This document shows positions 54,695 to 63,251 of a DNA stretch of 64,000 nt, one piece after another (the first letter of the stretch is position 1; the number at the start of each line of letters is the position of its first letter). The notes beneath the pieces are model-generated. The model was not told the origin of the DNA, did not search any database, and saw nothing but the letters and a program-made list of their open reading frames with translations. Source of the DNA: Myxococcota bacterium (GTDB lineage Bacteria; Myxococcota; B64-G9); the NCBI GenBank assembly GCA_022710975.1, contig JAKLGA010000014.1, forward strand, positions 124,001-188,000, in the 5' to 3' direction. A program made the position numbers and the translations under genes.

Positions 54695-54994
54695 TCAGGA
54701 CTCCTCGGACTCCTCGGACTCCTCGGACTCGTCGGAGGCGAACTCCTCCTCGCGCTCCTCCCCGTCCGCCTCCACCAGCACGGCCACGCGCTGTTCGGCG
54801 GCGTCCAGCCGGGCCATGCCCGCGCGGGTGAGCGCCACGCCCTCCTCGAACAGGGCCACCGAGCGCTCCAGGGGCTGCTCGCCCTTCTCCAGCTCGGCCA
54901 CGATGGCCTGCAGGCGCTCGAGCAACGACTCGAAGCTCGGGCCGCCGTCGGCCGCGGTCGTGGGGGACGATGGCTTGCTCTTCCTGGGCGTCAT
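54695..54994 (-). CDS. xseB: Exodeoxyribonuclease VII small subunit
   Basis: 99 residues. The family core is SFESLLERLQAIVAELEKGEQPLERSVALFEEGVALTRAG, a helical hairpin that binds XseA to form the single-strand-specific nuclease. The N-terminal 18 residues are Ser/Lys/Thr-rich. The C-terminus is extended by an acidic low-complexity tail (EEREEEFASDES then EES repeats) encoded by four 9-base repeats at 54698-54733. It follows xseA with a 45-base gap. Confidence 0.92.
   Translation of the reverse strand: MTPRKSKPSSPTTAADGGPSFESLLERLQAIVAELEKGEQPLERSVALFEEGVALTRAGMARLDAAEQRVAVLVEADGEEREEEFASDESEESEESEES
54698..54733. repeat. Four tandem 9-base repeats in the 3' end of xseB
   Basis: GGACTCCTC three times, then GGACTCGTC, on the plus strand. 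Read on the minus strand they encode the repeated Glu/Ser tail of XseB. Because the unit is a multiple of three, slippage would change tail length without a frameshift. Confidence 0.9.
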
Positions 54995-58728: not shown

Positions 58729-60696
58729 TTGACGAACCACCGCCACGCCGCGCGACTGCTCCTCGGCCTGTGCCTGGCCCTGCCGGCCCCGGGCCTGGCC
58801 CAGGGCCTGGCCCCGGCCTCGCCCCGCGCGGAGCTGCTCGAGGCGGAGGTGGATGGCCTGCTCCAGCGCCTGGCCGCGGCCACCGCCAGGCCGGTCAAGC
58901 CCCCGGCGCCCGACCTGCAGGAGACCCTCGAGCCACGCCGGACCGGCAAGCCGTTCGCCGGCCTGGCCCTGGAGGAGAGCGATCTGCGCCTGCAGGGCGC
59001 GCCGCCGGCCGTGCTGCGGCGGCTGCTCCTGCTGGCCCGTGCCCGCCAGGCCCTCGGGCCGCCGCTCGAGGTCGAGCTGGACGGCCCGACGCTGCGGCTC
59101 GAGGTGCGCCTGTTCGCCCTGCCCCCGGGGGCGCGGCCGGCCGCCGGCGCCCCGGAGGCGGAGCTGGCCAGGCTGCGCGACAACCTGGTCTGGCTGGAGC
59201 GGCGGGCGCAGGGCGCCCGGCGCCTGGCGGTGCTGGTGGGCAGCCTGGTGGACAGCGAGGGCGTGCGGCTGGAGAAGGCCCGCCTGGCCAGGCGCGGCCT
59301 GCGGGTCGAGGGCTGGGCGCTCGGCCCCGCGGCGCGCGAGGGCTACGCCCGCCTGCTCACCCGGCGCTGCAAGGCGTTGCCCCACCCGCCGGCCCTCGAG
59401 CTGGAAGGGCTGCGCGTCCTGGCCTGGGCGCCGGCGCAGCCGGCGGCGGCGTTGCAGCTCAGCGGCGCGCCGCTGCTGGACGTGCTGGCCTGGCTGGCGC
59501 CCGCGGGCGGTGAGGAGTACCTGGCGGTGGAGGCCGTGCCGCCGGTGCGGCTCAGCCTGGACCTGGCGCCGCCCCTGCGCGGAGGCTGGCTGCCCGCGCT
59601 GTTCGCCCGGGCCGGGGTGGCCGCCGAGGCGCGGGACGGGGTCTGGCTCGTCCCCCCGCCCGGCCGGTCCGCGAGCCGCCCGGCCAGCGGCTCCGCCAGG
59701 CCGCTCGACCTGGCCTGCCTGCGCGCGCCGGCCCGGGAGGTGCTGCGCATGGTCCTGGGCGCCCCCCACCGCGCCCTGGTGCTCGGCCCGGCGGGCGCGC
59801 GGCCGCTGGGCGCCTGGCTGGCCCGGCGCCCGACCGGGCGCGTGGCCGCGCTCACCCTCGACCTGCTCGGGCTCGAGGCCCGCGAGGCCCCGGGCCTGAC
59901 GGAGGTGGCCGCGCCCGGCGGCCCGCCGGCCGAGGCCCCGGCGCTGGCCGGACCGGTGGAGCTCACGGCGGTCCAGGCCCCGGCCGCGGCGCTCGTCGCC
60001 GGGCTCCTGGGCCAGGCCGGGCTGGTGGCCTGCCCGCCGCCGGCCGAGCCGCTGCCGCAATCCTTCTCCGCCCACGACGTGGACGCGCAGGCGCTCGTGC
60101 GCGCGCTGCTCGGCGCGCTGCAGTACCGCCTCGAGGCGGACCCGCGCGGTCCGCGCCTGGTGCCCCGCGCGGGCCCGGCCGCGGACCCGGCCGAGTGCGC
60201 GCCCGGACCGGCGCCCGCCGGCCCCACCCAGGCCCGCCTGGCCGGCCTGCTCGGGCGGCCCGGGCAGGAGCGCCTGGCGCTGGTGCAGGAGGGCGCGGAG
60301 CTCCGCTGGCTCGGCGCGGGCGCGCAGCTCCGGGACGGCCGCAGGATCGAGGCGGTGGGCCGCAGGGACCTGCGCCTGGTGGGCGAGGACGGCCAGCGCG
60401 AGCGGCTCCAGCCCGAGGCGGCGCCGGGGCTCGCGGCGGCGAGGACGGGCGCCTCGCAGACCCGCCACCCGCTCTCCCGGCTGCGCCTGGTGGGCACCCT
60501 CAGGCGGCCGGGGCAGCCGGCCGAGGCCCTGCTGCTCGCCCCGGACGGCACGACCTTCCGGGTGCGCGCCGGCGCCCCGCTGGGCACGCGCTGCGGCCAG
60601 GTGAGCGCGGTGCGCCCGGGCGAGCTCGAGGTGCGGCTGGGCTGCGCGCTCGACGAGGAGCCCCGCGCCCTCGTCCTGGGCCTCGAGGCGCCCTGA
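58729..60696 (+). CDS. Exported multi-module protein with secretin-N-like and PilP/GspC-like domains
   Basis: 655 residues from a TTG at 58729; signal peptide about 1-24, cleaved near GLAQ. Residues 75-130 and 180-230 (LALEESDLRLQGAPPAVLRRLLLL; RRGLRVEGWALGPAAREGYARLL) resemble the periplasmic ferredoxin-like folds of PilO and PilN. Three segments, about 240-310, 325-395 and 410-480 (LQLSGAPLLDVLAWLAP; LDLACLRAPAREVLRMVL; VELTAVQAPAAALVAGLL), resemble secretin N-terminal (STN/N0) repeats. Two C-terminal segments, 503-562 and 582-655 (LALVQEGAELRWLGAGAQL; LRLVGTLRRPGQPAEALLLAPDGTTFRVRAGAPLG in parts), look like PilP/GspC homology-region domains. All matches are by eye. No pilus or secretion genes adjoin it. 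Confidence 0.6.
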   Translation: MTNHRHAARLLLGLCLALPAPGLAQGLAPASPRAELLEAEVDGLLQRLAAATARPVKPPAPDLQETLEPRRTGKPFAGLALEESDLRLQGAPPAVLRRLLLLARARQALGPPLEVELDGPTLRLEVRLFALPPGARPAAGAPEAELARLRDNLVWLERRAQGARRLAVLVGSLVDSEGVRLEKARLARRGLRVEGWALGPAAREGYARLLTRRCKALPHPPALELEGLRVLAWAPAQPAAALQLSGAPLLDVLAWLAPAGGEEYLAVEAVPPVRLSLDLAPPLRGGWLPALFARAGVAAEARDGVWLVPPPGRSASRPASGSARPLDLACLRAPAREVLRMVLGAPHRALVLGPAGARPLGAWLARRPTGRVAALTLDLLGLEAREAPGLTEVAAPGGPPAEAPALAGPVELTAVQAPAAALVAGLLGQAGLVACPPPAEPLPQSFSAHDVDAQALVRALLGALQYRLEADPRGPRLVPRAGPAADPAECAPGPAPAGPTQARLAGLLGRPGQERLALVQEGAELRWLGAGAQLRDGRRIEAVGRRDLRLVGEDGQRERLQPEAAPGLAAARTGASQTRHPLSRLRLVGTLRRPGQPAEALLLAPDGTTFRVRAGAPLGTRCGQVSAVRPGELEVRLGCALDEEPRALVLGLEAP

Positions 60697-60712: not shown

Positions 60713-62101
60713 TCAGGCCCGGACCAGCCCGGCGAAGGTCTCCACGTGCGCGGTCTGGGGGAACATGTCCACCGCCTCCAGGGTGTGCAGGCGGTAGCCC
60801 AGCGTACGCAGCTCGGCCAGATCGCGGGCCAGGGTGCCCGGGTGGCAGCTCACGTAGGCCACCCGGGGCACGCGGCTGCGGGCCAGGGCCTCCAGCACGG
60901 CCGGCTCGCAGCCCTTGCGCGGGGGATCGAGCACCACCGCCCCGGGCCGCAGCCCGCGGGCCACCAGGCGCGGCAGCACCTCCTCCACCAGGCCCTCGTG
61001 GAACTCGAGCCCGCCCAGGCCCTGGGCCCGGGCCGAGGCGCGGGCGTCGGCCACGGCCTGCGGCACGACCTCGATGCCCACCACGGGCAGGTTCGCCTGC
61101 GCCAGCACCTGGGCCAGGACGCCCACCCCGGAGTAGGCGTCCACCACCGGCCGGCCGCGCTCGGCCGCCTCGCCCAGGAAGGCACGCACGCGGCCGAAGA
61201 GCTGCTCGGCCTGACGCGTGTTCACCTGGAAGAAGGACCCGACCGACAGCCGGAAGCGCAGGCCGAACAGGGACTCCTCCACGTGCGGCTGGCCCCACAG
61301 CGGCAGGCTGCGCCGGCCCAGGATCACGTTGGAGGAGGCCGGCTGCAGGTTCAGCACCAGGCCCACCACCCCCGGCACCCGCGCGCCGAGCTCGCGCGTG
61401 AGCGCGCGCCAGTCGCAGCGCAGCTCGTGGCGCCCGACCAGGACCACCAGGACCTGGCCGCTCGCCACGCCCACCCGCGCCATCACGTGCCGGAGCCAGC
61501 CGGTGCGGCGCTCCTCGTCGTACACCCGCAGCCGCTCGCGCTGCGCCCAGGCCCGCACCACCCGCACCGCCTGGTCGACCCGCGGATCGTGGATCGCGCA
61601 GGCCTCCACCGGCACCACCGCGTGCGAGCGGGGGGCGAAGAAGCCGGTCACCACCCGCCGCGCCTGCCGGGCCACCGGGTACTGGCCGCGGTTGCGGTAG
61701 CCCAGGGGCTCGGGCGCGGCCAGCACCCGGGGGCCGCCGTCGCGCTCGCCGACCTCCAGGCCGCCCACGCTGCGCAGCGTCTCCACCAGCAGCCGGCGCT
61801 TGAGGGCGAGCTGGGCGGAGTAGCCGGCGTGCTGGAGCTGGCAGCCGCCGCAGCGGCCGAAGACCGGGCAGGGCGGCCGCACGCGCTCGGGCGCGGGCTC
61901 GAGCACCTCGTCGAGCTCGGCCACCAGCCGGCGCGCGCCCGCGTGGACCACGCGGGCCAGCACGCGCTCGCCCGGCAGGGCGAACGGCACGAACACCGCC
62001 CGCCCCTGGGCCCGGCCCACGCCCTCCCCCTCGGACCCCAGCCCCTCGATGAGCAGCCGCAGCCGGGGGCCGCCCGGCGGGGCGCGACGGGTGCGCCTCA
62101 C
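60713..62101 (-). CDS. rlmD: 23S rRNA (uracil-5-)-methyltransferase, RlmD type
   Basis: 462 residues; the GTG at 62101 overlaps the stop of the upstream phosphatase-like gene (GTGA). The TRAM domain (about 15-65; LLIEGLGSEGEGVGRAQGRAVFV) precedes the 4Fe-4S cluster Cys set CPVFGRCGGCQLQH (about 79-92) with a fourth Cys in EACAIHD. SAM domain: GSFFQVNTRQAEQLF, VDAYSGVGVLAQVLA, LDPPRKGCEP, catalytic Cys in VAYVSCHPGTLARDL. It methylates a uridine in 23S rRNA (U1939 in E. coli RlmD); the exact position for this lineage may differ (RlmCD-like). Confidence 0.9.
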   Translation of the reverse strand: MRRTRRAPPGGPRLRLLIEGLGSEGEGVGRAQGRAVFVPFALPGERVLARVVHAGARRLVAELDEVLEPAPERVRPPCPVFGRCGGCQLQHAGYSAQLALKRRLLVETLRSVGGLEVGERDGGPRVLAAPEPLGYRNRGQYPVARQARRVVTGFFAPRSHAVVPVEACAIHDPRVDQAVRVVRAWAQRERLRVYDEERRTGWLRHVMARVGVASGQVLVVLVGRHELRCDWRALTRELGARVPGVVGLVLNLQPASSNVILGRRSLPLWGQPHVEESLFGLRFRLSVGSFFQVNTRQAEQLFGRVRAFLGEAAERGRPVVDAYSGVGVLAQVLAQANLPVVGIEVVPQAVADARASARAQGLGGLEFHEGLVEEVLPRLVARGLRPGAVVLDPPRKGCEPAVLEALARSRVPRVAYVSCHPGTLARDLAELRTLGYRLHTLEAVDMFPQTAHVETFAGLVRA

Positions 62102-63153
62102 TTGCACGGCAGGTTGACGAACTCGAAGGAGCCCTGCCCGCCCTTGAAGCGCGCGATGGCGCCCATGCCGCAGGAGGTCTTCCCGCCGTTGAGCTGCCAG
62201 GCCAGCGGGTTGGCCGAGCCCACGTTGAGGAAGAAGTCCGCGCGCATGACCCCGCCCTGGACCGGCTTGCCCTGGGCGTCCACCGCCCGGCCGCCGGACT
62301 CCAGGATGTGGGAGAACAGGCCGAAGGCGATCTTCTGGTCCCGGAGGAAGCCGGCCAGCACCGGATCGCCCACGTTGCCGGCCTCGACCGCCACGTCCAG
62401 CCCGTGGGCGTCCCTGCCGGCCGGGGGGCCGTGGCTGACCAGGACCGTCGTGCCGCTGCCCGGGAGCAGGGCCTTGAGGGCCTCCACGTCCGCGGGCTTG
62501 TAGGTGCAACCCGAGGACTGGTGCATGAAGCGGCGGTCCTGGTACCCCGGCAGGTTCACCAGGCTGACCGCGCCGAAGTCCACCCGCCGGATGAAGTCCA
62601 GGTTGATCAGGTTCGGGGCCACCTTGAGGGCGGCCAGGAAGGCGTTGTTGAAGGCCGCGCGGCCCTCGGTGTTCCCGATCAGCGCGAGCACCGGCCACTT
62701 GCGCTCGGCCGAGAACAGCAGGATCTGCGTCAGCTCGGTCTCGGTGGCGGCCAGATCGCCCAGCAGCAGCACGGCGTCGGCGCCGGCCTTTTGGAACCGC
62801 TCGAAGAACACCCGCAGCGCCGCGCGCGACTCGTCCGAGAAGTCCTTGGGGGCGCCCAGCACCCCCAGGGTGAACACGCCGTCCGGATCCGGGCCGAGCG
62901 CCTCGAGGGTCGGACCGCGGAAGGAGAAACGCGCGCCGCCCAGGGCGAGCTCCGCGGGCGGCTCGACCGCCGCGCCGTCCCCGGTGCAGCTCGCGCGGCG
63001 GGCCTTCAGGTAGGCGTAGTAGGCCGAGGCCGGCTCGGCCAGGTCGGTCAGCCCCTCGGGATCGTCGAGGTACTCCTCGTAGGTCCCTGCGCCCGCGGCG
63101 GCGGGGAGGGCGCACAGGCAGACCAGCCACAGGCTCGCGAGAAAGGTACGCAA
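62098..63153 (-). CDS. Exported metallophosphoesterase-like protein
   Basis: 351 residues from a TTG at 63153, chosen because GGGAGG lies six bases upstream and it yields a proper signal peptide (RTFLASLWLVCLCALPAAAGA); an upstream GTG (63192) would add 13 Arg/Gly-rich residues. The domain shows reduced metallophosphoesterase motifs: VLLLGDLAAT (GD), ALIGNTEG (GN[HE], with Thr in place of His) and LVSHGPPAG (GH-type). The first DxH motif is not seen. Some metal ligands therefore seem to be missing and activity is uncertain. It may belong to a divergent family. Translationally coupled to rlmD downstream. Confidence 0.65.
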   Translation of the reverse strand: MRTFLASLWLVCLCALPAAAGAGTYEEYLDDPEGLTDLAEPASAYYAYLKARRASCTGDGAAVEPPAELALGGARFSFRGPTLEALGPDPDGVFTLGVLGAPKDFSDESRAALRVFFERFQKAGADAVLLLGDLAATETELTQILLFSAERKWPVLALIGNTEGRAAFNNAFLAALKVAPNLINLDFIRRVDFGAVSLVNLPGYQDRRFMHQSSGCTYKPADVEALKALLPGSGTTVLVSHGPPAGRDAHGLDVAVEAGNVGDPVLAGFLRDQKIAFGLFSHILESGGRAVDAQGKPVQGGVMRADFFLNVGSANPLAWQLNGGKTSCGMGAIARFKGGQGSFEFVNLPCK

Positions 63154-63251
63154 GCACCACCTCCCGGCGCCCGCTCCGGGACGCGCACGCACCCTTGTCC
63201 CACGGGCTCGCGGCGCGTGTCAACCTCGGATTTTGCAGACCTTTTTTCCAG

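Follow-up and report, generated by a model that had tools for sequence, protein, structure and literature searches.

In type IV pili and type II secretion systems (T2SS), the barrel of PilP or GspC is located on one protein and the N0 domain of the secretin on another, and the contact between them links the inner and outer membranes. The C-terminal barrel of PilP binds the N0 domain of PilQ edge-on through its first strands, like the homology region (HR) of GspC with the N0 domain of GspD, and PilP has PilN and PilO as further binding partners (PMC3441751). PflD, a membrane-anchored flagellar protein of Campylobacterota, combines a PilQ-N1 domain with a PilP-like loop (PMC11870540). The gene described here is found in a 64,000-nucleotide stretch of DNA from a Myxococcota bacterium (the window) and encodes a fusion for which PflD and FcpMNO (PMC11870540) offer a precedent, the re-use and recombination of pilus alignment-complex parts in another periplasmic scaffold. 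PflD differs from it in having a membrane anchor and PilQ-N1, and in lacking an N0 triplet and a PilP barrel. Searches of Pfam, NCBIfam, the PDB and the open-access literature found no described protein with the architecture of the fusion; its parts are known, and their combination is apparently new to us.

Domain architecture of the fusion protein

A preliminary description of the gene had proposed that PilN/PilO-like, secretin-N-like and PilP/GspC-like modules follow one another in a single exported chain. The three module types were found in this order, PilP and N0 by sequence and PilN/PilO at fold level only. Neither unrelated folds nor a single module emerged, two of the module types being recognised by sequence statistics. 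The features are the following:

58729-60696, + strand: fusion gene, stop codon included, with a TTG start and a 655-aa product
58729-58803, + strand: signal-peptide-like segment without lipobox, residues 1-25 (hydropathy and inspection of the N terminus)
58810-59136, + strand: first alpha/beta unit (helix, strands, helix, strands), PilN/PilO-like, residues 28-136 (AlphaFold, pLDDT mostly 75-88 in the model of the window protein; Foldseek match to PilO)
59146-59430, + strand: second unit (long helix, then strand-strand-helix-strand), PilN/PilO-like, residues 140-234 (AlphaFold, Foldseek)
59434-59670, + strand: STN1, N0/STN-like, residues 236-314 (PilQ match when searched alone, topology, similarity to STN2)
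59680-59925, + strand: STN2, N0/STN, closest to PilQ N0, residues ~318-399 (profile matches to the PDB and to the PilQ of the same genome)
59935-60183, + strand: STN3, N0/STN-like, residues 403-485 (AlphaFold topology, internal homology)
60223-60420, + strand: HR1, GspC homology region-like beta barrel, residues 499-564 (weak Pfam matches, topology, Foldseek)
60460-60687, + strand: HR2, PilP-type barrel, residues 578-653 (Pfam, PDB profile, Foldseek)

Domain borders were transferred to the window protein through the alignment from the AlphaFold model of its orthologue in genome G005, both models having been built on the same five-sequence alignment. The model of the window protein is good only at about residues 60-230 (pLDDT 75-89) and poor in its middle part (mean 58); the orthologue gave a mean pLDDT of 79.9, a pTM of 0.69 and a clean domain topology. 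The top Foldseek matches of this model included PilP (probability 1.00), the GspC HR (1.00), PilQ N0 (0.99) and PilO (0.97). The whole-chain Foldseek E-values are weak (0.0016 at best) and the tables carry no aligned residues, so the fold argument depends on these probabilities and on the recurrence of the right families.

The middle part, described earlier as secretin-N-like, was confirmed as N0/STN and refined to three domains that are nearer to PilQ than to GspD. With the family profile, STN2 matched the PilQ N0 structure 4AR0 (E=2.6e-8) and the further PilQ entries 9SH1, 4AV2, 6VE2 and 6W6M, the PilQ-specific N0 matches of the PDB search spanning E=2.6e-8 to 1.2e-4. A T2SS origin of these domains is not favoured, because GspD was never matched among the PDB entries. 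The PilQ of the same genome was also recovered by STN2 (E=9.4e-5 in the profile search, 3e-5 with hhalign), and the alignment falls on its N0 domain, with STN and GspD_N0 Pfam matches at PilQ residues 500-566. Two STN2 shuffles that outscored the real sequence in the shuffle control were artefacts of 3-15 aligned columns. STN1, when searched alone, matched the N0 domain of P. aeruginosa PilQ (residues 293-361, E=1.1e-4) and resembled STN2 at profile level (E=4.4e-4). STN3 had no direct database match; it was similar to STN2 (E=2e-4) and STN1 (E=1.1e-3) in the profile comparison and its model displays the same order strand-helix-strand-strand-helix-strand, so that its probable N0/STN assignment is supported by predicted fold and internal homology.

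STN2 and STN1 thus match the PilQ N0/STN domain (4AR0) specifically and with equal topology. Unlike PilQ, the fusion contains three N0-like copies and lacks AMIN, N1 and the secretin barrel, and consequently it is not an outer-membrane channel. Neither the secretin barrel (PF00263) nor N1 was matched in any scanned fusion member, while Pfam secretin profiles easily matched the real PilQ and GspD of the genome. The idea of a secretin mimic, raised in the preliminary description, is weakened by the absence of both elements; like a degenerate secretin, it was not retained.

The PilP/GspC-like character of the C-terminal part also stood, with a PilP match above threshold, and was refined to two barrels, one of them GspC-HR-like. 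In HR2, the Pfam PilP family (PF04351) matched residues 579-635 (60463-60633) with E=7.9e-7 and 29.5 bits, versus a gathering cut-off of 25.6. A PilP match at E<=1 was obtained in all 7 scanned members, and four fusion genes exceeded the cut-off in the whole-genome scan. HR2 also matched solved PilP structures (E=6e-6 to 4e-5), with PilP of P. aeruginosa and M. xanthus among its matches, and the PilP proteins of the same genomes (hhalign, E=1.1e-6). Canonical PilP differs in being a small inner-membrane lipoprotein, whereas the fusion, with its 655 residues, has neither a lipobox nor a natively unfolded PilN/PilO-binding N terminus, carries the barrel as the last of about seven domains and is encoded outside the pilMNOPQ operon, beside xseA and kup.

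For HR1, four of the seven members matched T2SSC of Pfam, with E=0.006 at best, and two matched T2SSB; GspC_delta was matched by one member (E=9e-4). Against the GspC of its own genome, 6 of 100 shuffles reached the real score, and the profile comparison with the PilP barrel gave E=0.004. The strands of a small barrel are present in the G005 orthologue model, and Foldseek returned the GspC HR 3oss_C with probability 1.00, a value for the whole chain with the aligned residues not printed. HR1 may resemble GspC HR/GspB of the T2SS, by its predicted barrel topology and its weak T2SSC/T2SSB profile matches; in contrast to GspC, the fusion has no transmembrane helix or PDZ domain and lies outside the gsp locus.

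At the N-terminal end, both AlphaFold models contain two alpha/beta units at residues 28-234, for which Foldseek found PilO over the two models (5uvr, probability 0.92-0.97; 3jc8_Oa, 0.82-0.93). The ferredoxin-like periplasmic fold that follows a helix in PilN/PilO is present at fold level only. Sequence and profile searches gave nothing significant for PilN or PilO; the second unit aligned to the PilN of its own genome where expected, with E=0.32 and 3 of 100 shuffles scoring equally. Homology to PilN/PilO by sequence was accordingly not obtained by profile alignment, Pfam-type or shuffle-controlled comparisons, and neither a recognisable PilN/PilO sequence (PF05137/PF04350) nor a transmembrane anchor was found in the fusion. 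The predicted helix and ferredoxin-like strands, with the Foldseek PilO match, liken the module to the periplasmic domains of PilN, PilO, GspL and GspM, from which it differs by the missing anchor and the lack of significant sequence similarity. It is designated PilN/PilO-like from the comparison of predicted folds.

The signal-peptide-like segment was assigned by hydropathy and inspection. Every family member complete at the N-terminal end has a hydrophobic N terminus, and inspection of these termini found no lipobox. Hydropathy revealed no other strong membrane segment in the fusion family, the borderline peak at residue 417 (KD19 1.71) lying within the STN3 helix. Cys622 and Cys639 of HR2 are both present in 7 of 8 members and both missing in the eighth. 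Cys435 of STN3 (or an adjacent cysteine) and a cysteine near position 490 in the following linker occur in all six full-length members, are both missing in the partial G004 sequence and were paired by this co-occurrence. Since each pair is kept or lost together, cysteine co-conservation suggests two predicted disulfides in an oxidising compartment.

Reading frame and conservation within the family

The stop codon of the preceding potassium transporter gene (Kup type) lies 56 bases before the TTG start, and the GC content of the fusion gene by codon position is 0.89/0.59/0.98. Long antisense frames overlap it, which would fit a chance reading frame in GC-rich DNA. However, the fusion has Pfam, PDB-profile and structure matches, and a search for the same architecture in related genomes, proposed earlier, recovered full-length orthologues with open frames in five other genera of the family, at 24-33% identity, some of them in genomes whose codon use and base composition are less extreme (e.g. 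G005). The frame is thus not an artefact of GC content; conservation already refutes a chance origin, whose probability is practically nil. On the basis of conserved frames and neighbours, with a GC3 of 0.98, 58729-60696 is a genuine gene.

The family profile detected the fusion in 8 of the 9 genomes of its GTDB family, and the module order is shown to be kept in most genera of this one bacterial family. Two of these members are incomplete, one being shortened (G001) and the other split over two contigs (G004). The ninth genome, G008 (97% complete), has a pilus locus and no fusion, with another gene in its place beside xseA. Among 186 genomes from the same phylum but outside the family, none yielded such a protein at E<=1e-12. 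At E<=1e-5, the matches listed from outside the family were N0-like or PilP-like proteins separately, never in one frame.

Compared pairwise across genera, the fusion proteins are on average 26% identical, as against 49% for PilP, 53% for PilN, 58% for PilO and PilQ, 60% for GspC and 84% for PilM. Divergence much faster than that of the pilus core is as expected of an accessory factor, and the absence from the pilus-bearing G008 indicates that the fusion is dispensable for that machine; together, they argue against a core role. Low identity could also mark a decaying, non-functional remnant of a rearranged pilus locus, as could the shortened G001 member without STN3 and HR1. Such an origin is very improbable, given the intact open frames in many genera, the coding composition, the conserved fold-defining glycines and the co-conserved cysteine pairs. 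The G001 gene (L021 950-2410) is a natural short version of the fusion, in which STN3 and the GspC-like barrel are missing, as are the two cysteines of the PilP domain.

Genomic context and proposed function

The fusion gene is preceded by kup (K_trans, E=3.5e-167); after it comes an RNA methyltransferase gene (tRNA_U5-meth_tr, TRAM) in the opposite orientation. It adjoins xseA in G003, G004, G005 and G006. In G007 its neighbour is a polyprenyl synthetase gene, and in G002 and the window an RNA methyltransferase gene; in the window xseA is close by, with kup in between. These shared housekeeping neighbours indicate that its position is largely inherited. Pilus genes were never seen beside it in the family genomes checked, and the earlier statement on its distance from pilus and secretion genes holds true, the pil, gsp and third secretin loci lying elsewhere. 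The pilMNOPQ locus, of the kind resident in the family genomes, is on contig C1 of the window genome (PilP and PilQ recognised by Pfam; PilM, PilN and PilO from their position and sequence) and the fusion on C6. The genome further has a gsp (T2SS) locus and a third secretin locus, whose gene content is Tad-like, on C28. A canonical PilP displaced from an incomplete operon was ruled out, because a PilP is already encoded within the pil locus.

PilP-HR and PilQ-N0 are binding partners in the type IVa pilus, so both halves of this joint are present in the single fusion chain. From domain matches and predicted folds, we tentatively propose, at slightly less than even confidence, that the fusion serves in the periplasm as a soluble, accessory connector or regulator, derived from joined and duplicated docking modules of the type IVa alignment complex. 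Its PilP/GspC-like barrels could dock on secretin N0 domains, its three N0 domains could receive barrels of the PilP or GspC type, and the N-terminal module could pair with PilN/PilO or with itself. In this way, as a non-core component, it would bridge, cap, time or regulate the joint between inner membrane and secretin in the resident pilus or in the sister T2SS. Alternatively, its own barrels and N0 domains could pair mutually to form a periplasmic string or ring. Against the connector proposal stand the lack of linkage to pilus genes and the pilus locus of G008 without the fusion, and the mean identity of 26% also counts against it, since conserved partners and fixed contacts would lead one to expect a higher value. 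A more far-reaching version, where one soluble protein with paired N0 domains and barrels would replace the PilN-PilO-PilP/secretin-N bridge as an independent connector, with no anchor or secretin, is rather doubtful.

The main rival to the accessory connector is a fully independent scaffold, in which the modules would have been exapted for an envelope structure other than the pilus or the T2SS through intramolecular or homotypic N0-barrel pairing. The housekeeping location apart from pilus genes and the rapid divergence from PilP and PilQ agree with it, and the Campylobacterota flagellar motor, which recruited PilMNOPQF (PMC11870540), provides a precedent. However, no candidate partner structure was found and the N0 and PilP domains retain recognisable PilQ- and PilP-specific sequence, so that the independent scaffold is considered possible and on the unlikely side. 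A flagellar role like that in Campylobacterota is not favoured, since a FliF-sized YscJ_FliF match was obtained only in the family genome where the fusion is missing. Smaller YscJ-type matches occur in five fusion-bearing genomes and are missing in three others, which gives no link to a T3SS. The FliF-sized match itself is at C128:10311-10835 of G008; its coincidence with the missing fusion is one case and could be due to chance.

The presence of both sides of the PilP-N0 joint, with neither anchor, N1 nor secretin barrel, and the absence from one pilus-bearing relative would also fit a competitive decoy that occupies PilQ N0 or PilP and so prevents the trans-envelope bridge from assembling or sets the time of its assembly. 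A decoy would need fewer modules than three N0 copies and two barrels, and judging from the domain content this regulatory role is improbable.

A natural anchor-free protein that holds both contact partners in multiple copies would be a ready reagent for studying the barrel-N0 contact. Such a protein would also demonstrate that parts of the alignment complex are recyclable outside their own operon, as happened to pilus parts in the Campylobacterota flagellar motor.

Other detached docking modules and neighbouring frames

Detached pilus docking modules seem to be common in the phylum. In other families, small exported N0-N1 'mini-secretins' of 160-175 aa, consisting of STN and Secretin_N without a barrel (two checked with Pfam), are encoded at L079 4759-5271, L080 4243-4755, L081 4364-4882, L082 4063-4581, L083 3943-4467, L084 4364-4846 and L085 4477-5004. 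Stand-alone exported second PilP-like proteins of 157-161 aa (Pfam PilP, E=2.5e-9 and 1.3e-14) are encoded far from the pil operon in the window genome (C7:185420-185905; L024 7421-7906) and in G005 (C139; L058 2050-2523).

Elsewhere in the window, positions 62098-63192 (- strand) encode an exported 364-aa protein that is metallophosphoesterase-like by reading, with no Pfam match at E<=1e-4, and positions 54695-54994 (- strand) hold an xseB-like ORF whose end is a run of Ser-Asp/Glu-Glu repeats (SDESEESEESEES).
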